Origin: a virus
DNA: 21,667 nucleotides
Strand: one strand, 5' to 3'
Virus record (IMG/VR): IMGVR_UViG_3300010157_000286
Location: 1 to 21,667 of that record
Shown here: positions 3 through 20,397 of the stretch, in pieces
Layout: the number at the start of each line of letters is the position of its first letter
Position numbering within the stretch: the stretch's first letter is position 1
The notes under the pieces: generated by a model
What the model was told of the DNA's origin: nothing
Databases searched by the model: none
Seen by the model: only the letters and a program-made list of their open reading frames with translations
Program-made: the position numbers and the translations under genes

Positions 3-59
3 GGGGCAGAAGCCGTCCCGAAATTGGCGGCAAAAGTTGGGGTGTCGAAAACGCATTGA
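3..59 (+). CDS. possible 3' end of an upstream gene (partial)
   Basis: This frame enters from the left edge and stops at TGA 57-59. The 18 visible residues include AVPKLAAKVGVSKTH, which looks like part of a helix-turn-helix, but the piece is too short to assign. The stop is followed immediately by a perfect hairpin (60-82), a common arrangement at a gene end; this is the main argument for the frame. The other two forward frames are also open here, so the choice of frame is weak. Confidence 0.25.
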   Translation, partial: GAEAVPKLAAKVGVSKTH

Positions 60-82
60 TTTGCGGGCTGTTCGCCCGCAAA
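60..82 (+). other. perfect 9-bp inverted repeat (hairpin) upstream of the small terminase gene
   Basis: TTTGCGGGC (60-68) and GCCCGCAAA (74-82) are exact reverse complements around the 5-base loop TGTTC. The hairpin starts right after a TGA at 57-59 and ends 15 bases before the chosen terS start. No T-run follows on either strand, so it is not a textbook intrinsic terminator. It could be an mRNA 3' end, an RNase barrier or a translation-control hairpin. The pairing is seen directly; any role is inferred. Confidence 0.6.
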
Positions 83-97
83 CGTAGGATGGAAGGT

Positions 98-580
98 ATG
101 AAAGGCCGACCACCAACGCCGAAGCACATCCTTGAACTTCGAGGTTCGTGGCGAGCCAATGAGCGCGAGGAGCTTGGCGATCCGCTCGACGCACCGCTCC
201 AGCCGCCGGAGTGGCTGTGCGAACGCGGCAAGGCCGTTTTCGCCAATGTGGTGGCCTGGTTGATGAAGATGGGGACGCTGTCAGCGTCCGACGAAGGAGT
301 CGTCCTGCGATACGCCACGACCTACGTTCTCTGGGAACACGCTGCAATGAAGATGCAGGCCGTCCCCGAGGTGTACATCGACGTTATCGACAAGCATGGT
401 GCCGTCCGCTTTGCCCGCCCGACCAGTCTGGCGATGCAGGCAAAGGAAACCGGCGAGCAACTGCGGCACCTTGAAACGGTGCTAGGGCTGACCCCGTCCG
501 ACCGCACCCGCCTTGGCTTCAAGGCTGAGAAGGTCGTCCTAGACCCGATGGATGCTCTCCTTGCAAAACGACGCGGTTGA
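98..580 (+). CDS. terS: terminase small subunit, P27 family
   Basis: The small terminase subunit recognises phage DNA and delivers it to the large subunit for packaging. The 160-residue product opens with MKGRPPTPKHILELRG, the basic N-terminus typical of the P27 family, followed by a helical body (WLCERGKAVFANVVAWL, then a YATTYVLWEHA helix) and a C-terminal LGLTPSDRTRLGF segment, also typical of the family. Start choice: ATG 98 has AGGA at 86-89, eight bases upstream, and gives the usual family N-terminus. ATG 89 and TTG 56 are in frame but poorer; TTG 56 would read through the 60-82 hairpin. The gene overlaps the large terminase gene by 29 bases, consistent with translational coupling. Length is normal for the family. 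Confidence 0.9.
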   Translation: MKGRPPTPKHILELRGSWRANEREELGDPLDAPLQPPEWLCERGKAVFANVVAWLMKMGTLSASDEGVVLRYATTYVLWEHAAMKMQAVPEVYIDVIDKHGAVRFARPTSLAMQAKETGEQLRHLETVLGLTPSDRTRLGFKAEKVVLDPMDALLAKRRG

Positions 581-2075
581 TATTCGCGACTTTATCGGGC
601 TGCTCAAGCATTCTCGCGGCGATTTCGCCGGCCAGCCATTCGTGCTGGAGGAGTGGCAGGACAGCTACTTCGATAGGCTACTCAACACGAAAAGGGCAGA
701 CGGACTACGAAGATACCGCACATCCCTGCTCGCGCTGCCCCGCAAAAATGGTAAGACGCAAATGGCGGCAGCCTTGGGGCTGTACATGCTTTTTTGCGAC
801 GACGTTGGTGCTGAGGTCATCTGCGCCGCCGGCGACAGAGGACAGGCATCCCTGCTCCACACCGCGGCCAAGCAACTGCTTGAGTCCTGCCCCTCCCTTT
901 GCAGGCGGGCGAAGATTTACCGCAACAGCATTGTGGTGCCGGAGCGGAACTCAAGCATGTTCTGCATCAGCAGCGAGGCTGGAACCAAACACGGCTACAA
1001 CCCCTCCTGCTGCCTGATAGACGAGTATCACGTCTTCCCCGACCGGGAACTTGTTGACGTTCTGGAAACTGGAATGGGGGCGAGAAGCCAGCCGCTCACG
1101 GTCTATATCACCACCGCCGGCACCGACAAGCTTGGCCCCTGCTACAAGGATTGGCAGCGGGCCGAGAAGATTCGCGACGGCCTCATCAAGGACGACACCT
1201 TCCTGCCGTGCATCTACGCTGCGCCGCCCGAAGCAGACCCATTTGACGAAGCCACCTGGGCGGCAGCGAATCCGAATTACGGAAAAGTGCTGAAGCCGGA
1301 TTACTTCCGAGCGTTCGCGGAGAGGGCGAAAGCATCGCCGAGCGACGAGGTTGTTTTCAAGACGCTCCACTTGAATATCTGGGAGAACTCCACGGCGAGG
1401 TGGCTTCGTAACGGCGTTTGGGAAGCCAATGCCGGCCCTCTCCGGCCCACAGCAGGCCGCAAATGCTGGTGCGGAATCGATCTCGCCAGCAACTTCGACA
1501 CGACGGCGTTCGTGGCCGTCTGGCCCGACACAGATGGGACGTATGACATCCACTGCATGCTGTTCATACCTGAAGATAACGCAGCCAAGCGAGAGCGAGA
1601 GGATCGAGTCCCCTATCAACAATGGGCGAAGGATGGGTTTGTTAGAATGACAGAAGGCGATGTGACTGATTATGACGTTGTTCGCGACTACATTCTCTCG
1701 TTCTGCGAGAAGAATTCGGTTGAGGGCATAGCCATTGATCGCTACAACGCCACGCACTTGACGACGCAGTTGATCAATGAGGGTGTCACGGTCAAGCCCT
1801 TTGGACAGGGTTTTATCTCGATGAGTCCGGCCACGAAGCAAGCCGAGGTACTGGCAATATCAAACCAGCTTCGGCATGCCGGAAACCCGGCACTGGCCTG
1901 GCAGATATCCAACGTGCAGATAAAGATGGATGATGCCGGAAACGTCAAGCCGACCAAAAAGCATTCGCACGACACAGGCAGAATCGATGGAGCGGTAGCA
2001 CTTTTCATGGCGCTGGGCATTGCCAGCACCGCCAACCACGGCGAAGAAAACCCCTACGAAATCATGGTGATATAG
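552..2075 (+). CDS. terL: terminase large subunit (HK97-type ATPase/nuclease)
   Basis: This is the DNA-packaging motor: an N-terminal ATPase translocates DNA and a C-terminal RNase H-like nuclease cuts it. In the 507-residue product, ALPRKNGKTQ (61-70) is the Walker A-like loop, CLIDEYH (154-160) supplies Walker B Asp157 and Glu158, and ITTAGTD (186-192) is the coupling motif. The nuclease begins at WCGIDLASNFDTTAF with Asp310. IAIDRYNAT contributes Asp396 and GRIDGAVALF contributes Asp479, giving the three acidic metal-binding positions expected. The length is normal and no motif is missing. It starts inside terS and ends one base before the portal's GTG codon, so the three genes form one packaging operon. 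The family assignment is firm; the cos versus headful mode cannot be read from the sequence. Confidence 0.96.
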   Translation: MLSLQNDAVDIRDFIGLLKHSRGDFAGQPFVLEEWQDSYFDRLLNTKRADGLRRYRTSLLALPRKNGKTQMAAALGLYMLFCDDVGAEVICAAGDRGQASLLHTAAKQLLESCPSLCRRAKIYRNSIVVPERNSSMFCISSEAGTKHGYNPSCCLIDEYHVFPDRELVDVLETGMGARSQPLTVYITTAGTDKLGPCYKDWQRAEKIRDGLIKDDTFLPCIYAAPPEADPFDEATWAAANPNYGKVLKPDYFRAFAERAKASPSDEVVFKTLHLNIWENSTARWLRNGVWEANAGPLRPTAGRKCWCGIDLASNFDTTAFVAVWPDTDGTYDIHCMLFIPEDNAAKREREDRVPYQQWAKDGFVRMTEGDVTDYDVVRDYILSFCEKNSVEGIAIDRYNATHLTTQLINEGVTVKPFGQGFISMSPATKQAEVLAISNQLRHAGNPALAWQISNVQIKMDDAGNVKPTKKHSHDTGRIDGAVALFMALGIASTANHGEENPYEIMVI

Positions 2076-2076
2076 C

Positions 2077-3723
2077 GTGGAGGATGCAGCCATCGAGGAC
2101 ATGCTGGAGCTTGACTTCCGCAGCGCCATCTCTAGGGTATTCGAGGAGATCGTAGAGACTCGCCGCACGGTCGCTGGCGTCTTCATCTCCCCCGAAACAA
2201 GCCTCCAGTGCAGTGCCGTGCTGGCCTGCGTTCGACTCTACGCTGAAACGATCGGCAGCCTGCCGTTCCACGTTTACAAGCGTTTGCCGGCAGGCAAGGG
2301 GAAGGTGATCGCCGAAGACCACCCGCTGTACAACGTGCTTGCCTACGACCCGAATGGCTGGCAGACGAGCTACGAATTCCGCGAGTTGATGCAGGCGTGG
2401 ATGCTCCTATGGGGAAACGCCTATGCCTACATCGTCCCCGGCCGCCGGGGCAGCGTGACTGAACTGCACCCTCTGCACCCTGCCCACATGGTCTGCAAGC
2501 GGTTGCCGGGGAAAGGCAAGCTTCGCACCGGCGGCAAACTGCGGTACGAATACACCTTCCCCGGCGATTCGCTGCCAACGATCTACAACCAAGACGAGAT
2601 TTTCCATCTGCGGTGGCTGTCCAGCGACGGCGTGACAGGCTATGTGCCGACCACGCTATCGCGGGATGCGATTGCTCTGGCTCGAGCGACTGAGCTTGAG
2701 TCTTCGGCATACTTTGGCAACGGAGCCAGGCCTGGCACGGTAATCGAAACCGATCAGCCACTGAAGCCAGAGACGGCGCAGCGGTTGCGGCAGGCATGGG
2801 AAGACATGCACCGCGGCCCCGAGCGAGGGTCAAAGACGGCAGTGATGCCGCACGGCGCTCACGTCAAAGAACTGACCCGCAATAATCAGACTGATATGCT
2901 CGTTGAGACTCGGCGCTACCAAGTCGAGGAGATCACCCGAGCGTACCGTGTACCCCCTTATATGGTGGGTGACGTGAGCAAGGCCAGCTACAACTCATTC
3001 GAGCAGCAGGGGCTGGATTTCCTGACCTTCAGCCTGACGCCGCACCTCCGACGTTGGGAGGGAGCATGCCGCCGTGACCTCGTTACTGACGACGAGACGT
3101 TTTTCGTTGGCTTCGACACCTCGGCGTTGATTGCAGCCGACCACGCGGCCATGGGTGCCTTCTGCCGGGAGATGCAGAATATCGGCGTCTACTCAATCAA
3201 CGACGTTCGCAGCAAGATCGGCGACAACCCGATCGGCGAAGAGGGCGACAAGCGGTTCGTGCAGGTCAATATGCAGCTTCTGGAGGCTTTCACGCCTCAC
3301 ACGCCCAACGGACAGGCACCGGAGCCGGCCGCCCCCGCCGCGGCCCCTGACGCCCCCGCACCGCAGAAAACAGCACCCGACGCCCCGCCGGAGCCTCCGG
3401 CCGCCGGCAAGCGAGACGCCAACGAGGTGCTGTTCAAATCGACGCTCCGACGCCTCGCAGCTATCGAATCTGACGGCATTCTGGAGCGTCGGAACAAGCC
3501 AACCAAGATGGCCGCCTTCTTCGATGAGCATCGCAGCCGGATCGTCAACGAACTGAGAGATGCCGCAGAGGCTACCGGCCAACACATCGAGTCGTTTGCC
3601 GACAATTGGATTGAGCGATCTAAGGATTTGCTGTTGGAATGCCACCGCAGTGGCACCAAATACGAAGTAGCCCTGGAGGGATGGTGCGACAAGCACCTCG
3701 CGACTGATGCCGCAGCCACTTGA
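2077..3723 (+). CDS. portal protein, HK97 family, with long C-terminal extension
   Basis: The portal forms the ring at one capsid vertex through which DNA enters and to which the neck attaches. The N-terminal half has the family hallmarks: ACVRLYAETIGSLPFHVYKR, HPLYNVLAYDPN and LLWGNAYAYI. Later come YRVPPYMVGD and SYNSFEQQGLDFLTFSLTPH. The core ends near residue 404. A Pro/Ala-rich linker (about 405-444) then joins a charged helical domain (445-548), making the protein (548 residues) longer than the roughly 420-residue HK97 portal. GTG 2077 directly follows the terL stop. ATG 2101 is an alternative, but neither has an ideally spaced ribosome binding site. The 3' end overlaps the next gene by 17 bases. 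The C-terminal extension could bind scaffold, protease or the neighbouring bacterioferritin-fold protein, but the sequence does not show this. Confidence 0.95.
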   Translation: MEDAAIEDMLELDFRSAISRVFEEIVETRRTVAGVFISPETSLQCSAVLACVRLYAETIGSLPFHVYKRLPAGKGKVIAEDHPLYNVLAYDPNGWQTSYEFRELMQAWMLLWGNAYAYIVPGRRGSVTELHPLHPAHMVCKRLPGKGKLRTGGKLRYEYTFPGDSLPTIYNQDEIFHLRWLSSDGVTGYVPTTLSRDAIALARATELESSAYFGNGARPGTVIETDQPLKPETAQRLRQAWEDMHRGPERGSKTAVMPHGAHVKELTRNNQTDMLVETRRYQVEEITRAYRVPPYMVGDVSKASYNSFEQQGLDFLTFSLTPHLRRWEGACRRDLVTDDETFFVGFDTSALIAADHAAMGAFCREMQNIGVYSINDVRSKIGDNPIGEEGDKRFVQVNMQLLEAFTPHTPNGQAPEPAAPAAAPDAPAPQKTAPDAPPEPPAAGKRDANEVLFKSTLRRLAAIESDGILERRNKPTKMAAFFDEHRSRIVNELRDAAEATGQHIESFADNWIERSKDLLLECHRSGTKYEVALEGWCDKHLATDAAAT

Positions 3724-4174
3724 CGGTGTGATCGACGCCTTGCAAGCCTCCCTGCGCCTCCATTGGTCGCAGGCGGCGATGTATGACATGCAGGCCGTGC
3801 ATCTGACCCGCTGGGGGTATTCCAAGCTGGGCGAAACGTGGGCCTCCTACGCAGTCGAGGAACGCGGCCACATCAAGATGCTGTCAGAGCGAATCGAATT
3901 CTTCGACATTCAGCCGACAACCGAGTTTGATCAGCCAGAACTGCCCCGGCACGACTTCGAGGGCATTCTGGACGTGAACTATGCGGCCGACGTGACCGCC
4001 GCAGAGGTTGAGCGATCGGGATTCTTGACCTGCATGGAAATCGGCGACAGCACATCGGCCAAGATTTTCACGAAGTTGAGGCGTGGCAGCGAGGATTCGA
4101 TGGCAAATATCGAAGCAATCCGCCGCGTGATCGAGCAGATCGGTGCAGACAACTACCTTGCCAACCAGGTGTAA
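3707..4174 (+). CDS. bacterioferritin-fold protein with degraded iron centre, in the head operon
   Basis: The 155-residue product matches bacterioferritin (158 residues in E. coli) along its full length. Residues 87-155 align with E. coli Bfr 86-154 without a gap, ending IGADNYLANQV against MGLQNYLQAQI. YSKLGETWASYAVEERGHIK matches helix B. By my alignment to remembered E. coli Bfr, two of six diiron ligands are kept (Glu52 for E51, His55 for H54). The others are changed: His19 for E18, Asp95 for E94, Ser128 for E127 and Ser131 for H130. Haem ligand Met52 is Arg53. The four-helix fold and perhaps cage assembly are thus likely, while normal ferroxidase and haem binding are unlikely. It overlaps the portal gene by 17 bases and its stop lies one base before the protease ATG, so it is a true member of the head operon. 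ATG 3707 is kept because the alignment covers helix A; no strong ribosome binding site precedes it. Role unknown: head structural protein, internal protein or iron-related protein are all possible. Confidence 0.85.
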   Translation: MPQPLDGVIDALQASLRLHWSQAAMYDMQAVHLTRWGYSKLGETWASYAVEERGHIKMLSERIEFFDIQPTTEFDQPELPRHDFEGILDVNYAADVTAAEVERSGFLTCMEIGDSTSAKIFTKLRRGSEDSMANIEAIRRVIEQIGADNYLANQV

Positions 4175-4175
4175 C

Positions 4176-5765
4176 ATGGAAATCGAACGCCGCACAAACC
4201 TCGGTGAAACGTCGCTGGAGTACCGCGACGACCTCAATACAGGCATGAAGCAGCCGGTAATTTCCGGCTATGCGGCGGTATTCCAGAGCGAGTCAAGAAA
4301 TCTGGGAGGCTTCACTGAGGTCATTCAGCCCGGCGCGTTCGCAGAGGTGCTGTCCAGTAACCCCGATGTGGTCGGTTGCTACAACCACGACAAGAATTTC
4401 GTGCTGGGACGCACCAGTTCAGGCACGATGATGCTGTCTGAAGACGAGCGCGGCCTGAAGTACAAAATCTACCCGCCCGAAGCTCGAGCCGATGTGATTC
4501 AGGCGGTCGAACGGCGCGATGTCATCGGAAGCAGTATTGCGTTTTTGTGCCGTGACGAAGATCAGTCTTGGTCAGGCACCACCCGCGGCATGCGGCTGCG
4601 GACAATCAAGAAAATCAGCCTGCTTGACGACGTTGGGCCGGTGGTTCGCCCAGCATACGACGGCGCGAGCGTGATTGTGAGCCGAAGAGCGCTGGAAATG
4701 GCCCTCGGCGACCACTTTCGTCCCAATTTGAGCATGGCAAACGCCGCAAAACGTGGCTTAAAGGGCGGAAAAACGGGCGAAACTGACCAGAATCTGGTCG
4801 GAATTGCGACGAAAATAGCCGAAAGATGCATCATTACGCCCGAGGAAATCGTCTATCTGGAGGTCGTTTTCGAGCGTTGCATGGACGCAAAAACCACCGG
4901 ATGGTCAGGTTCGCCAGCGTTTTGGGAGTATCAGATGGCCGGAGGCGACTCCGGTGCCAAGTGGATCGGTAGAAGGGCGGCAGAACAGACCAGTAACGAC
5001 GTTGACTTGAAGCCACCGGCCGACATGGCCGCCGCTGCAAGGCGTGGCATTGAGCTTCACGAAGCCGGCCGCTCCGGCGACGGACTGAAACCGGAGACGG
5101 TAGCCCGCGCGAAGCGGATCGCAGCCCGCGAGACGCTGACGCCCGAGCATGTGCGTGAGATGCGGGCTTGGTTTGCCCGCCATTACGTTGATAAGAAGGC
5201 AGGCTGGTCGAATGCAGGTGAGGAGACGCCCGGCTACACCGCTTGGATGCTCTGGGGCGGCGATCCCGGCCGGCGGTGGAGTGAAGCCAAGGTCAAGCAG
5301 ATGGAAAACGAGAAGCGTGACGACATGTTTGACCCGATCATGCCGCCACCCGCCCCCGAGGCCGACGAGTCATCGTCCTCTGAGTCATATGACCTGACGC
5401 CGGCCAATGACCAACTGCACGAAGCGATCGAAGGCATCGCCGAAGTCAACGGCCAATGGCCGCAGGACGGTGCCAACGGCGCACATTACATGCGCGAAAG
5501 CCCGTTTGCTGACTCCGGCTTGGTGTGCGCCAACTGCGTGATGTTCAAAGGCGGCGGGAAGTGCGAGGCGGTCGCTGGCGAAATCGAGGCGGGCGGTGTC
5601 TGCAAGCTGTGGGTTATCCCTGCTGACAAGATGAACATGGAGCCGGCGGGCCGCAGCGAAGCGCCGCCAGAAACTACGCCAGCAGTTGTTACGCCACCGA
5701 TCGATTACGCAGGCAGAGCGGCATCACTTCGCGCCGCTCTCCTCGAGTCAGTTGCACGGCAGTAA
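4176..5765 (+). CDS. HK97-type prohead protease fused to duplicated small domain and HiPIP-like Cys4 domain
   Basis: The N-terminal domain (about 1-178 of 529) is a prohead protease (peptidase S78/U35 type) that cleaves scaffold and capsid protein during head maturation. PVISGYAAVFQSES is the usual opening, His71 in CYNHDKNFVLGR is the likely catalytic histidine, and Ser120 in GSSIAF fits the nucleophile position. Residues about 187-272 and 280-377 are two diverged copies of a small alpha-helical domain: AAKRG..., TPEE, GWS, GGD-GAKWIG against AAARRG..., TPEH, GWS, GGDPGRRWSE. A Pro/Glu/Ser linker (about 389-405) follows. Residues 435-485 contain Cys451, 454, 463 and 476 (C-x2-C-x8-C-x12-C, then KLW), the spacing seen in high-potential iron-sulfur proteins. 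ATG 4176 with AGGTG at 4167-4171 is preferred over the upstream in-frame GTG 4143, which lies in the previous gene. The protease call is firm; the cofactor of the Cys4 domain is inferred. Confidence 0.92.
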   Translation: MEIERRTNLGETSLEYRDDLNTGMKQPVISGYAAVFQSESRNLGGFTEVIQPGAFAEVLSSNPDVVGCYNHDKNFVLGRTSSGTMMLSEDERGLKYKIYPPEARADVIQAVERRDVIGSSIAFLCRDEDQSWSGTTRGMRLRTIKKISLLDDVGPVVRPAYDGASVIVSRRALEMALGDHFRPNLSMANAAKRGLKGGKTGETDQNLVGIATKIAERCIITPEEIVYLEVVFERCMDAKTTGWSGSPAFWEYQMAGGDSGAKWIGRRAAEQTSNDVDLKPPADMAAAARRGIELHEAGRSGDGLKPETVARAKRIAARETLTPEHVREMRAWFARHYVDKKAGWSNAGEETPGYTAWMLWGGDPGRRWSEAKVKQMENEKRDDMFDPIMPPPAPEADESSSSESYDLTPANDQLHEAIEGIAEVNGQWPQDGANGAHYMRESPFADSGLVCANCVMFKGGGKCEAVAGEIEAGGVCKLWVIPADKMNMEPAGRSEAPPETTPAVVTPPIDYAGRAASLRAALLESVARQ

Positions 5766-5922
5766 TAATCTGGTGTAAGCTACAGACTGACACATTGCTC
5801 TGCGATGGATTTTGCAGAGAGCAGTGCGAGCGGCACAAGTCGCGGCGCGCTAGCGGGACAACATCACCCGCCAGCCGCCTTGCTATGCCTGGTGGTTGGC
5901 ACCATACGGAGCCAAAGCCACC
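5766..5922 (+). promoter_or_regulatory. structured non-coding leader of the major capsid gene
   Basis: This 157-base gap between protease and capsid genes has no convincing reading frame. It is dense in inverted repeats: CTCTGC 5798-5803 with GCAGAG 5814-5819; GCGGG 5853-5857 with CCCGC 5867-5871; a 10-bp stem of 5870-5879 with 5891-5900 that includes two G-U pairs and an 11-base loop; and TTGGC 5896-5900 with GCCAA 5911-5915. The last two share 5896-5900 and so exclude each other, and the last one embraces the probable capsid ribosome binding site GGAG (5908-5911). A good sigma70-type promoter was not found. The pairings are seen by eye; regulation of capsid translation or mRNA processing is inferred. 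Confidence 0.5.
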
Positions 5923-7263
5923 ATGGCCGCATCGAATCTCAAGCGTCTTCAGGATCGTGCCGCTGCCGTTGCAGCGCGGATGAATGAACTGGCCGGCGTG
6001 TCGGAGCGTTCGGAAGAGCAGACCGCAGAACTGCGGAAGCTTGACACCGAGGCCGACACCGTCAAGGCCGACCTGGAGTTCGAGCAGCGTCTGGCTGCCA
6101 AGGAGAAGGAACTCCGCAGCGTCATCGAGCCTGCCGCCGCCCCCGCCCCTGCTGCCACTGAGCCAGAGAAGCGGAAGCTTCCCGCTCAGATTGCCAGGAT
6201 CGACTACCGCTCGCTCTCGGCGTTCAACGACAGCCCCGCGGCCGTCGAAGATGCTTACAAGGTTGGCCGCTGGCTTCGGGCGTCGATCTTCCGCAAGGAA
6301 GAAGACCTCCGGTGGTGCAATGACAATGGCGTCGAAAGCCGCGCCCTCAACGAGGGTGTTAATTCGGCCGGCGGAACCCTCGTTCCCGACGTACTCGCGG
6401 ATCGCGTGATTCGACTTGTCGAAACGTATGGTACTTTCCCGCCCGCTGCGGAATCGCAGACGATGGCTCGCGATACCCTTGTGATTCCCAAGCGGCTCAC
6501 GGGGACTTCGGCTTATTTTGTCGGAGAGGGAAATAGTATCAACGAAAGCGAGCCGACTTACGGAAATGTGCAGTTGATCGCCCGTAAGCTGGCCTGCTCC
6601 TGCCGCCTCTCTACGGAGGTGATGGAGGATGCTCTGGTGAATCTGGCAGACCAGGTAACAACCGAGTTTTCGACTTCGCTGGCCCTGAAAATTGATCAAT
6701 GCGGATGGCTTGGTGACGGCAGCTCCACCTACGGCGGCATCTACGGTATCGTGCCGAAGATCGACAACGGAAGCTACACCGCTTCGGTTGTTACCGCGTC
6801 CACCGGCGGCACGACCTTCGGCAGCCTGACGCTCAACGACTTCCTTAACGTCATGGGCAAGGTTCCGCTCTACGCCCGCCAGGGTGCCGAGTGGTATGTG
6901 TCCCCGGCAGGGTTCGCGGCCTCGATGGCTCGCCTCAAGTACTCTGCCGGCGGTAACGCTGTGCAGCAGATCGGTGGCGATGCTGGCCTGGAGTTCCTCG
7001 GCTACAAGGTCAACCTTGTGCATGTGATGAACACCACGCTGACCAGCGATCCCTCGGCCGTCAAGGTGATCTTCGGAAACATGAAGCTCTCCTCGATCCT
7101 TGCCAAGCGGCGTGACTTCTCGGTGAAGCTCTACGATCAGGTCTACGCGACTACCGATCAGATGCTTCTCCAAGGCACCATGCGGTTCGACATCAACCAT
7201 CACTCCCTCGGCAGCACGTCGGAGGTCGGCCCTGTGGTCGCCCTCAAGACTGCCGCCTCTTGA
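5923..7263 (+). CDS. major capsid protein, HK97 fold
   Basis: This is the main shell protein. From ATG 5923 the product has 446 residues. Residues 1-75 are highly charged and predicted coiled coil (NLKRLQDRAAAVAARMNEL and on), the built-in scaffold or delta domain of HK97-type capsid proteins. A Pro/Ala/Glu linker (about 75-90) probably carries the protease cleavage site. The HK97 core follows: GVNSAGGTLVPDVLADRVIR, the YFVGEGNSINESEPTYGNV beta region, LACSCRLSTEVMEDALVNL (spine-helix region), DQCGWLGDGSSTYGGIYGI, then YVSPAGFAASMARLKYSAG and the C-terminal LYDQVYATTDQMLLQGTMRFD. An in-frame TTG at 5896 adds nine residues, but ATG 5923 with GGAG at 5908-5911 is the better start. The long structured leader upstream suits a highly expressed gene. 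The cleavage site is not identified precisely. Confidence 0.95.
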   Translation: MAASNLKRLQDRAAAVAARMNELAGVSERSEEQTAELRKLDTEADTVKADLEFEQRLAAKEKELRSVIEPAAAPAPAATEPEKRKLPAQIARIDYRSLSAFNDSPAAVEDAYKVGRWLRASIFRKEEDLRWCNDNGVESRALNEGVNSAGGTLVPDVLADRVIRLVETYGTFPPAAESQTMARDTLVIPKRLTGTSAYFVGEGNSINESEPTYGNVQLIARKLACSCRLSTEVMEDALVNLADQVTTEFSTSLALKIDQCGWLGDGSSTYGGIYGIVPKIDNGSYTASVVTASTGGTTFGSLTLNDFLNVMGKVPLYARQGAEWYVSPAGFAASMARLKYSAGGNAVQQIGGDAGLEFLGYKVNLVHVMNTTLTSDPSAVKVIFGNMKLSSILAKRRDFSVKLYDQVYATTDQMLLQGTMRFDINHHSLGSTSEVGPVVALKTAAS

Positions 7264-7285: not shown

Positions 7286-7723
7286 ATGATTCACGCACAG
7301 AATTCCAAGGTTCTGTTCAGCCTCGACACCTCGACCACCGCTTCCAGCGGCACGGCGAGCCTGGTGATCGACCGGTTGGACTATGACTACGCCGACGTTG
7401 TGGTGGCGCGGGCCAGCAACGCTGCGACGACCTTTGCCAGCGTCTTGAAGGTGCAGGAGTCTGACGACAACTCCACCTACACCGACATCACGGCATTCGT
7501 CGGCGGCGGCACCGGCGGCTTCACGATCCCGACCGTGACCAGCACGGGCAGCGTGTCGGCCGTCAAGATGGGCATCGACTGCCGCAATCGGAAGCGTTAC
7601 CTGAAGGTGCTGGTAACGCCCTCCACGGCGGTCAACGTCGCCATCGAGGCCCGCCTGCACCGCGGTCACATCAGCCCAGCGTCCGCTACGGCGGCCGGTG
7701 TGCTGGCAATCGTCAACGGTTAG
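7286..7723 (+). CDS. probable capsid decoration or minor head protein
   Basis: The 145-residue product is rich in Thr, Ser, Ala, Val and Gly and is predicted all-beta. It starts MIHAQNSKVLFSLDTSTTA and contains VLKVQESDDNSTYTDITAFVGG, with a CRNRKRYLKVLVTPS strand pair. Small beta proteins of this type follow the capsid gene in many uncultured phage genomes; I recognise the pattern from memory but have no named family. The position right after the capsid gene and the strong AGGAG at 7272-7276, nine bases before ATG, fit a protein made in high copy, such as a decoration protein. No enzymatic motif, signal peptide or membrane segment is visible. Other possible roles are head fibre or stabilising protein. 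Confidence 0.7.
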   Translation: MIHAQNSKVLFSLDTSTTASSGTASLVIDRLDYDYADVVVARASNAATTFASVLKVQESDDNSTYTDITAFVGGGTGGFTIPTVTSTGSVSAVKMGIDCRNRKRYLKVLVTPSTAVNVAIEARLHRGHISPASATAAGVLAIVNG

Positions 7724-7784
7724 TCCCATATTGCGGGACGGCCAAGGATGGCCGAATAGGCGCAGGGACGCGCGCCCGCTCCCT
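7723..7784 (+). other. three consecutive hairpins in the spacer before the glycosyltransferase gene
   Basis: The 76-base spacer (7724-7799) contains three back-to-back inverted repeats. These are GTCCC 7723-7727 with GGGAC 7735-7739; CGGCC 7739-7743 with GGCCG 7750-7754; and AGGGA plus GCG (7764-7768, 7770-7772) with CGC plus TCCCT (7777-7779, 7780-7784), which has one bulged C. The first begins in the stop codon of the previous gene. The last ends two bases before the ribosome binding site AAGGAG (7787-7792). No T-run follows any stem, so simple intrinsic termination is unlikely. RNA processing or stabilisation of capsid-region mRNA is plausible but inferred. Confidence 0.55.
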
Positions 7785-7799
7785 ACAAGGAGCGATTCG

Positions 7800-8528
7800 A
7801 TGCTGATTCGTACCGGGAACATTGAAGCGGACTTGAAGATCGCGGCGGTGATGTCCACCCCGCGACTCGCCTTCTCCGACAACATGTTCTGTGTCTCTCA
7901 GGCACTTGCCCCACACGGCATATCGCCGTATCGCGTCACAGGCGCGTTCTGGGGGCAGTGCCTTGAGAGAGCCATGCAGTTCGTGATGGACGACAATGAC
8001 GTAATCCTGACCATTGATTACGACAGCGTCTTCTCCACCAAGACATTCGAGGCTTTGGTGGCCCTCTTCTGCCACTCTGGCGTCGATGCAATCGCCCCGC
8101 TCCAGACGAAGCGGGAGGCGAACACGATCATGCTCTCCCTGCCGGGCGTCGGCCCCGAGGAGAAGAAGGATGTCGATGACGCCTGGTTCAAGAAGTCGGT
8201 GCAGTTGGTGGACACCGCCCACTTCGGCCTGACGCTGATTCGGGTGTCGGCACTCAAGAAGATTCCGAAGCCATGGTTCCTTGCCGCCGCCGGTGCGGAC
8301 GGCACCTGGGAGGCTCCCGACCACGTTGACGAAGACATTTTCTTTTGGAACCAGTGGAAGGCCGCTGGCAACACGCTGGGGATCGCCACCGCGGTGTCGA
8401 TCGGCCACATCGAGCCGATGATCACTTGGCCCAGCCGCGAAACCGGCACGGGCAAGGTGCAGCAACACACAACCGAGTATTGGAAGGGCGGCGCAGGCCC
8501 GAAGGAAGCATGGGGGATCGTCCGATGA
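7800..8528 (+). CDS. GT-A-type glycosyltransferase-like protein
   Basis: GT-A glycosyltransferases move a sugar from a nucleotide sugar to an acceptor using a metal held by a DxD motif. In this 242-residue protein VILTIDYDSVFS gives the DxD motif at Asp73-Asp75 after a predicted beta-strand and an N-terminal helix region (FWGQCLERAMQFVMDD). VDEDIFFWNQWKAAGN (176-191) fits the acceptor or base region, and His203 in VSIGHIEP suits the C-terminal metal-binding histidine of many members. There is no signal peptide or membrane segment, so it acts in the cytoplasm. ATG 7800 has an ideal AAGGAG at 7787-7792; frames starting further upstream would run through the hairpins. Its place between head and neck genes suggests it modifies a virion protein, but the donor and acceptor are unknown. 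Confidence 0.75.
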   Translation: MLIRTGNIEADLKIAAVMSTPRLAFSDNMFCVSQALAPHGISPYRVTGAFWGQCLERAMQFVMDDNDVILTIDYDSVFSTKTFEALVALFCHSGVDAIAPLQTKREANTIMLSLPGVGPEEKKDVDDAWFKKSVQLVDTAHFGLTLIRVSALKKIPKPWFLAAAGADGTWEAPDHVDEDIFFWNQWKAAGNTLGIATAVSIGHIEPMITWPSRETGTGKVQQHTTEYWKGGAGPKEAWGIVR

Positions 8529-19332: not shown

Positions 19333-20397
19333 ATGTTTATACCGGGGTGCTTTTGTTGCGGCGGTGGCGGCGGGCCTGCCGATTCGTGCAGCTACTGTGC
19401 CGATCTCTGTACATTACCACCAGCAATAACGATGCGACTTGATTTAGGGGCATCTGCTGGCGTCACAGGTGCCTCGCTGCCAAGCGGGACTGCTGCTGCG
19501 CTCAAATCCTACATTGAGTCGCTTTTGTTTTGCCGCCACATGACAAAGCATGATGTTTCGTGCCACGACCCAGACTACGAATACATTTTGGAAGACGGCT
19601 ACACAATTGGCTACGCCGACAACTGGGGGGAATCTGGAGAGTTTGGCGGCATACAGCTTGGTTGCTCTGGAGGCTCAAGTTTCTACAACGCTTACCTTCT
19701 TGTTGGAGATGGCCTTTCGTACATGTACGAAGGAGCAATGACTGTAAGTGGTGTAGCTTTTTCTTATGCCTTTGGAGCCAACCTGCAACGAAGAGGGCGG
19801 TCGTTTTTCTTAGACCACGCAGTATGCCCGCTGACCTCCGAAATTCCAATTGTCGGAACCATCAGAATGCCTGACGGATTTTACGACATAGACGGAATTG
19901 TTTTGCCTTTTTCGGTTTACGTCACATCAGGCACTGGTGGTGCAAACAAGTCGTTTGTGTCGTTTCCTGACGCTCGCCTAATGATGGCACCGTCGTCTTG
20001 TGCGTCTCCTGTATTTTACAACCACAACACATGGTGGTATTACCTAATCGGAACAAGTGCGGAAGGCACAGCGTCACCCACTTACTGGTCTTCTGGAAAA
20101 TACACAGCCGACTGTGAGATTCTTGGATACTTAGGGTATCGACCCAAAATTACAGCCGGTAAGGCTGGCGTTGTCCACATCACCGCAACCAATGTCTATT
20201 ACGACTACTGGTGGCGCGTGTTTCGTGGCTCAACCAAAGTCATTGAGTACGGCAGCGATTCGACGCCCGACAGCGGCGGTAACACCGGATCGATCACCAA
20301 CACGTTTGCCGTGTCGGCCGGCGACGTAATCACGCTGGGCGATCCCGGCGATTACAACGTCTGCACAAACCTCCAAATCTGGTGGACACCCACATGA
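19333..20397 (+). CDS. Cys-rich putative tail fibre or receptor-binding protein
   Basis: The 354-residue product begins MFIPGCFCCGGGGGPADSC, with six cysteines in the first 26 residues (6, 8, 9, 19, 22, 26). The rest is beta-rich and aromatic: YIESLLFCRHMTKHDVSCHD, GGIQLGCSGGSSFYNAYLLVG, NHNTWWYYLIG, and a C-terminal GDVITLGDPGDYNVCTNLQIWW strand pair. Position at the end of the tail cluster and the patchy base composition suit a host-recognition protein: bases 19861-19920 are 40% GC while 20281-20340 are 60%. AGGAGG at 19322-19327 is a strong ribosome binding site. There is no signal peptide, and no named domain is recognised. The Cys-rich start could bind metal or form disulfides in the finished virion. 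Confidence 0.6.
   Translation: MFIPGCFCCGGGGGPADSCSYCADLCTLPPAITMRLDLGASAGVTGASLPSGTAAALKSYIESLLFCRHMTKHDVSCHDPDYEYILEDGYTIGYADNWGESGEFGGIQLGCSGGSSFYNAYLLVGDGLSYMYEGAMTVSGVAFSYAFGANLQRRGRSFFLDHAVCPLTSEIPIVGTIRMPDGFYDIDGIVLPFSVYVTSGTGGANKSFVSFPDARLMMAPSSCASPVFYNHNTWWYYLIGTSAEGTASPTYWSSGKYTADCEILGYLGYRPKITAGKAGVVHITATNVYYDYWWRVFRGSTKVIEYGSDSTPDSGGNTGSITNTFAVSAGDVITLGDPGDYNVCTNLQIWWTPT

Follow-up and report, generated by a model that had tools for sequence, protein, structure and literature searches.

The locus described here raises the question of what a bacterioferritin-like protein is doing among the head genes of a tailed phage, and whether it belongs to the virion or is an accessory function that travels with these genes. 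The window analysed is the whole 21,667 nt stretch of an uncultured phage contig (positions 1 to 21,667 of IMG/VR record IMGVR_UViG_3300010157_000286). The genes of the head region are as follows.

56..580, + strand: terminase small subunit (PF05119, E = 1.6e-10)
552..2075, + strand: terminase large subunit (PF20441/PF03354)
2077..3723, + strand: portal protein with a C-terminal WCDKH-type tail (PF04860, E = 6.4e-92)
3707..4174, + strand: bacterioferritin-like protein with a remodelled centre, 155 aa (PF00210, PDB bacterioferritins, AlphaFold and Foldseek, >60 viral homologues)
4176..5765, + strand: prohead protease from ATG 4176; the longest open reading frame starts at GTG 4143 (PF04586, E = 1e-35)
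5896..7263, + strand: HK97-type major capsid protein (PF05065, E = 1.4e-29)

As the initial annotation reported, the ferritin-like gene overlaps the portal gene and abuts the protease gene. Its ATG lies within the portal gene, giving a 17-nt overlap (the portal stop codon is at 3721–3723), and the protease ATG at 4176 comes one base after its own stop codon at 4172–4174. The position between portal and protease is recurrent, with the order portal, ferritin-like gene, protease and capsid found in about 60 IMG/VR contigs, and in most carriers the gene lies within the late head operon. Exactly one ferritin-like gene was present in each of the 14 carrier genomes checked, with no second copy in any of them.

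Two other genes of the window are recorded here. At 7698–8528, between the capsid and connector genes, there is a glycosyltransferase-2-like gene (Glyco_trans_2_3, E = 0.0014) that is kept at 56–65% in related phages; a gene matching PHROG 1574 more strongly than this one does adjoins the bacterioferritin of another phage contig, L075 (see below). At 19333–20397 lies an otherwise unplaced late protein, a small gene with a Cys-rich N-terminus (CFCCGGGGGPADSCSYCADLC) and one weak, unrelated Pfam match.

A bacterioferritin fold outside the functional bacterioferritin family

Four lines of evidence agree that the product has the bacterioferritin fold claimed for it at the outset. First, it matches PF00210 with E = 1.4e-8 and 35.2 bits, above the gathering score of 24.5, and is thus a member of the ferritin superfamily. 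Second, its best match among PDB sequences (phmmer) is 4am2, with E = 4.3e-9 and an alignment that is gapless over residues 8–151; the initial annotation had described 69 C-terminal residues without a gap, and was right about the absence of gaps but too short in extent. Third, a family profile matches PDB sequences with E values down to 1.9e-23. Fourth, the AlphaFold model (pLDDT 95.3, pTM 0.88) is a four-helix bundle with a short helix E and Bfr-like geometry, and its top Foldseek matches are bacterioferritins, with TM scores of 0.93–0.96 and, for most, an rmsd of 1.0–1.5 Å. Profile and structure searches alike return ferritin-fold matches, and helix E and the whole subunit fold are retained.

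Against the NCBIfam bacterioferritin equivalog TIGR00754, which has a cut-off of 125.55 bits, the window protein scores 31.1 bits and related copies 51–59 bits, whereas the L075 protein passes with 144.4 bits; no PHROG was found for the ferritin-like protein in the PHROGs library. Compared with the bacterioferritins of E. coli (1bcf) and Blastochloris viridis (4am2), members of TIGR00754/PF00210, the phage protein shares the five-helix subunit, the length and the gapless alignment, and it retains E52, H55 and an acidic residue at 95; it differs in Glu18 to His, Glu127 to Ser, His130 to Ser, Ala or Gly, and replacement of the haem ligand Met52. Judged by the ligand, haem Met and equivalog tests, it is predicted to be a bacterioferritin in fold only, outside the functional family. 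One further candidate, MT835709, proved to be a bacterial bacterioferritin on a contig recorded as phage and was set aside as not being a relative in phage context.

A remodelled metal and haem site

Ligand positions were mapped against the PDB sequences of bacterioferritins, and conservation was counted over 58 distinct family sequences drawn from >60 viral homologues (IMG/VR) at 45–82% identity. The corresponding codons in the window are listed here.

3761..3763, + strand: His19, replacing diiron ligand Glu18; invariant (58/58)
3860..3862, + strand: Glu52, equivalent to Glu51; invariant (58/58)
3863..3865, + strand: Arg53, replacing haem ligand Met52; Arg in 52/58, otherwise Phe, Leu, Lys or Gln
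3869..3871, + strand: His55, equivalent to His54; invariant (58/58)
3989..3991, + strand: Asp95, replacing Glu94; Glu in 32/58, Asp in 26/58
4088..4090, + strand: Ser128, replacing bridging Glu127; invariant (58/58), with Ser/Thr also in many Planctomycetota bacterioferritins
4097..4099, + strand: Ser131, replacing His130; Ser in 42, Ala in 14 and Gly in 2 of 58

There are several features of this arrangement. First, the substitutions initially proposed (His19, Asp95, Ser128, Ser131, and Arg53 for the haem Met) are correct on the PDB sequences and hold family-wide: not one of the 58 members has the diiron set E18, E51, H54, E94, E127 and H130, and none has Met at position 53. Second, Glu52 and His55 had been named as the only two of six ligands to survive; both are indeed kept, but position 95 is always acidic, so that an original-kind, ligand-capable residue is present at three of the six diiron positions, with H19 as an additional candidate. 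Third, H19, Y26, H32, E52, H55, H82, D83, E102, S128 and E129 are invariant across the 58 sequences, and there are 24 invariant columns at 45–82% identity. Finally, dN/dS for the ferritin-like gene is 0.02–0.29, within the head-gene range, indicating purifying selection.

Because the residues are invariant or class-conserved and dN/dS is low, the centre is, as read from these alignments, rebuilt and maintained rather than decayed. Of the two descriptions offered earlier, ‘dead’ or ‘remodelled’, the second fits better and the first is not the obvious word, since among the mapped residues only 53 and 131 vary beyond their class. The phage protein probably has a putative non-diiron His2/carboxylate2 site, perhaps mononuclear. 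The four buried charged residues might also form structural salt bridges with one another, in the manner of ferritin light chains.

Presence, loss and movement of the gene

If the protein were an essential component of an HK97-type head, the gene should be present whenever the head operon is, and this is not the case. The contig L086 (7.2 kb; all contigs are uncultured and some are short) has 88% DNA identity to the window over both flanking head genes, which are intact, but lacks the ferritin-like gene. Its protease starts MSQPLD-LERRT, in which the six opening ferritin codons read on, in frame, into those of the protease, corresponding to a precise in-frame deletion. The L086 portal retains the WCDKH-type tail that is typical of carrier portals and absent from non-carrier portals, which argues that the gene was lost, and recently. 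In a tree of 84 distinct related portals, 52 are from phages with the gene and 32 from phages without it, and three changes are needed; the gene is present throughout one clade, of 48 distinct portals, with the window lying apart, among non-carriers.

The gene is also found elsewhere. In L038/L039 (60–61% identity) and in L066–L068, L071, L073 and L074 (45–48%) it belongs to the replication module of another phage group, which also encodes a Prim-Pol protein and a UvrD-type helicase; in the two such genomes in which a portal was found, both of them large, this is tens of kilobases from the ferritin gene. Between L053 and L041 the portal dS is 0.03 and the ferritin dS 0.79, so the gene has been swapped independently of the portal. 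The ferritin-like gene is an accessory, swappable cassette with its usual slot at the portal/protease junction, and the clean loss in L086, the 32 of 84 portals without it and the replication-module location argue against its being an obligatory component of the head. The initial suggestion, that a ferritin fold had been reused structurally in the head or at the portal vertex, is not supported, on these same grounds and on the existence of secreted cellular copies (see below).

A related possibility is that the protein forms part of the virion or is carried as cargo inside the head, made with the head proteins, packaged near the portal or within the head, and perhaps ejected with the DNA. The invariance of the portal-ferritin-protease order in about 60 contigs and the full retention in the clade of 48 portals are as this would predict, and there are two further points in its favour: Foldseek ferritin-fold matches named ‘Prohead protease’ from uncultured Caudovirales phages (ranks 6, 12 and 20; E = 1.7e-3 to 2.3e-2), and the canonical bacterioferritin located between capsid and tail-sheath genes in L075. 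However, the head genes of L086 are intact without the gene, many sister phages do without it, other members sit in the replication module, a secreted cellular version exists, and there is no C-terminal extension for cargo targeting; we consider a virion role unlikely. Virion proteomics alone would be weak evidence on this point because the bacterioferritin of the host can be carried along during virion purification, as seen with phage AXL1 (PMC9206674).

The cargo analogy had been drawn from encapsulins, whose cargo ferritins bear targeting peptides (PMC8346489), and it does not hold up: the gene ends at the normal Bfr C-terminus, which leaves no room for a C-terminal targeting peptide. All the ferritin-like sequences stop at the Bfr C-terminus or no more than two or three residues from it, and the targeting peptide beyond the fold that marks Family 1 encapsulin cargo is lacking. 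The two systems are alike in having a ferritin fold encoded beside an HK97-fold shell gene. They differ in that the phage protein is a single full-length bundle with no targeting peptide, it is encoded beside a tailed-phage capsid gene accompanied by portal, terminase and protease genes, and the gene is dispensable and also found elsewhere in genomes.

Variable C-termini of the prohead proteases

A Pfam scan of ten sister-phage proteases found no ferritin domain fused to them, and the idea of a ferritin-protease fusion was rejected; the scan gave DUF5824, TUDOR-like and weak LPD22 and HiPIP matches instead. The region past the S78 protease domain is variable among L110, L119, L130 and L101, with DUF5824, TUDOR-like, HiPIP-like and weak LPD22 segments, as if it were a site of domain exchange. 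In the window the C-terminal part of the protease (5442–5648) has a HiPIP-like motif with four invariant Cys and an invariant Tyr and Trp, spaced CxNC-x8-C-x12-CKxW, the third spacing varying among relatives. A profile of this motif matches HiPIP 3h31 in the PDB (E = 8.4e-5), and 18 of 21 members match Pfam HIPIP (best 6e-4), the window alone falling below the curated cut-off; AlphaFold gives the segment a pLDDT of 46. The motif occurs whether or not a phage carries the ferritin gene, and in a portal-containing open reading frame of G014/G016. It may represent a [4Fe-4S] domain attached to the head protease of a phage.

Cellular copies and origin

A genome scan with close alignment gave no match, and a wider scan revealed three loci with the remodelled protein in planctomycete metagenome-assembled genomes, whose labels, one of them Kuenenia, may be in error. 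The copy at L166 has an N-terminal signal-peptide-like sequence (MLKMLGLGLAICASSIAISAE), with a related signal sequence in L172, and is near sulfatase-like genes (neighbour families were assigned by reading, not search); no matching phage genes were found at the L166 locus, and no other PF00210 genes in the three genomes with the secreted copy. These copies nest in the phage clade (tree support 100/95), suggesting transfer of the remodelled protein from phage to host. The nesting, together with export predicted from sequence, implies that the protein can work without a virion.

A second group of cellular relatives consists of chromosomal bacterioferritins with S/T128 and S131 and the haem Met kept, which make up 19 of 29 from Planctomycetota (the 29 being the sequences most similar to the phage profile, a selection that favours S128) as against 0 of 24 from Chloroflexota. 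They are found at loci L173–L190, L192, L193 and L197, and the other ferritin-family genes in those genomes keep all six ligands. They resemble the phage family in the loss of the helix-D ligands and in a conserved E129, but retain Glu19 and haem Met53 and lack H32, H82 and E102. With all columns included they are the nearest cellular group and join the viral clade (97/92); once the ligand columns are taken out, the test neither favours nor rejects the grouping (AU p = 0.47), and the viral clade sits on a very long stem, at 3.55 changes per column. The gene is likely derived from a Planctomycetota bacterioferritin. Judging from the ferritin-like gene alone, Planctomycetota are probably the hosts of these phages; a search for the host via the portal in 392 Planctomycetota genomes gave distant portals only.

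Possible roles in infection

We favour, with moderate confidence, the interpretation that this is a phage accessory protein of bacterioferritin fold, a putative metalloprotein that would influence metal or redox homeostasis within infected cells. The ancestor would have been a bacterioferritin, most likely of Planctomycetota, that may first have lost its helix-D ligands (E128 to S, H131 to S); on the viral branch E19 would then have become His and the haem Met been lost, leaving a conserved buried set of H19, E52, H55 and D/E95 beside S128/E129. The protein is predicted to fold as a bacterioferritin subunit, possibly still cage-forming, and would bind metal at a candidate non-diiron site, perhaps mononuclear His2-carboxylate2. 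Expressed from whichever operon houses the gene, it would provide metal buffering or redox protection in the infected cell and is unlikely to be a head building block, given the clean deletion, the second genomic home and the exported cellular version.

A different intracellular role would be that of a subunit which, itself inactive, joins the host's own bacterioferritin cage and, while infection proceeds, changes how iron is stored or how it is released with the help of haem. The protein is suited to this in keeping the whole subunit fold and helix E while losing the haem Met and ferroxidase ligands, a host-type bacterioferritin is its likely ancestor, and mixed-subunit bacterioferritins are known (PDB entries 9iig and 9bts). 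However, a poison subunit needs no invariant H19, E52, H55 and D/E95, export is predicted for the planctomycete copy, which would place it apart from any cytosolic cage, and no further PF00210 gene was found in the three genomes that carry it; we regard this role as quite doubtful. It is a long shot that the conserved residues (two His and two carboxylates, H19, E52, H55 and D/E95, plus an invariant H32 close to the former haem pocket) form a new type of metal site in a late factor that is packaged and delivered, perhaps working with the HiPIP-like domain of the protease, and that planctomycetes later took up and export.

Loss in L086 and patchy presence might instead indicate a decaying moron without function, which is very improbable given dN/dS values in the head-gene range and 24 invariant columns across such divergent sequences. 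A normal iron-storage bacterioferritin with misaligned ligands is scarcely credible, and we discarded it: the best homologues are bacterioferritins, but the alignment is gapless across the whole fold, the helix-D ligand positions lack Glu or His in 58 of 58 members, and the score of 31 bits is far from the 125.55-bit equivalog cut-off.

Other phage ferritins and implications

A canonical bacterioferritin, with six ligands and the haem Met, is encoded at 5983–6456 of L075 (and also in L076–L078), a contractile-tailed phage contig in which it lies between the major-capsid and tail-sheath genes. Lactobacillus phage Semele encodes a DNA-binding ferritin-like protein (PMC6669764). This and the viral proteins matched in BFVD are, like the family described here, single accessory ferritin-superfamily genes on phages, but are of Dps or non-haem types, and the BFVD matches have only 9–17% identity. 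A literature search for phage bacterioferritins, which left most subscription journals outside its scope, found only host-protein contamination and Dps-type genes, and no paper describing the remodelled family.

The sequences described here represent a lineage of viral bacterioferritins that has no entry in the PHROGs library and whose centre is conserved yet non-canonical; in it a natural deletion separates the ferritin-like gene from head assembly. The protein has apparently passed back into a bacterial host, there in an exported form, and the comparison brings to light an unremarked Planctomycetota chromosomal bacterioferritin variant in which the helix-D ligands are lost and the haem ligand is kept.
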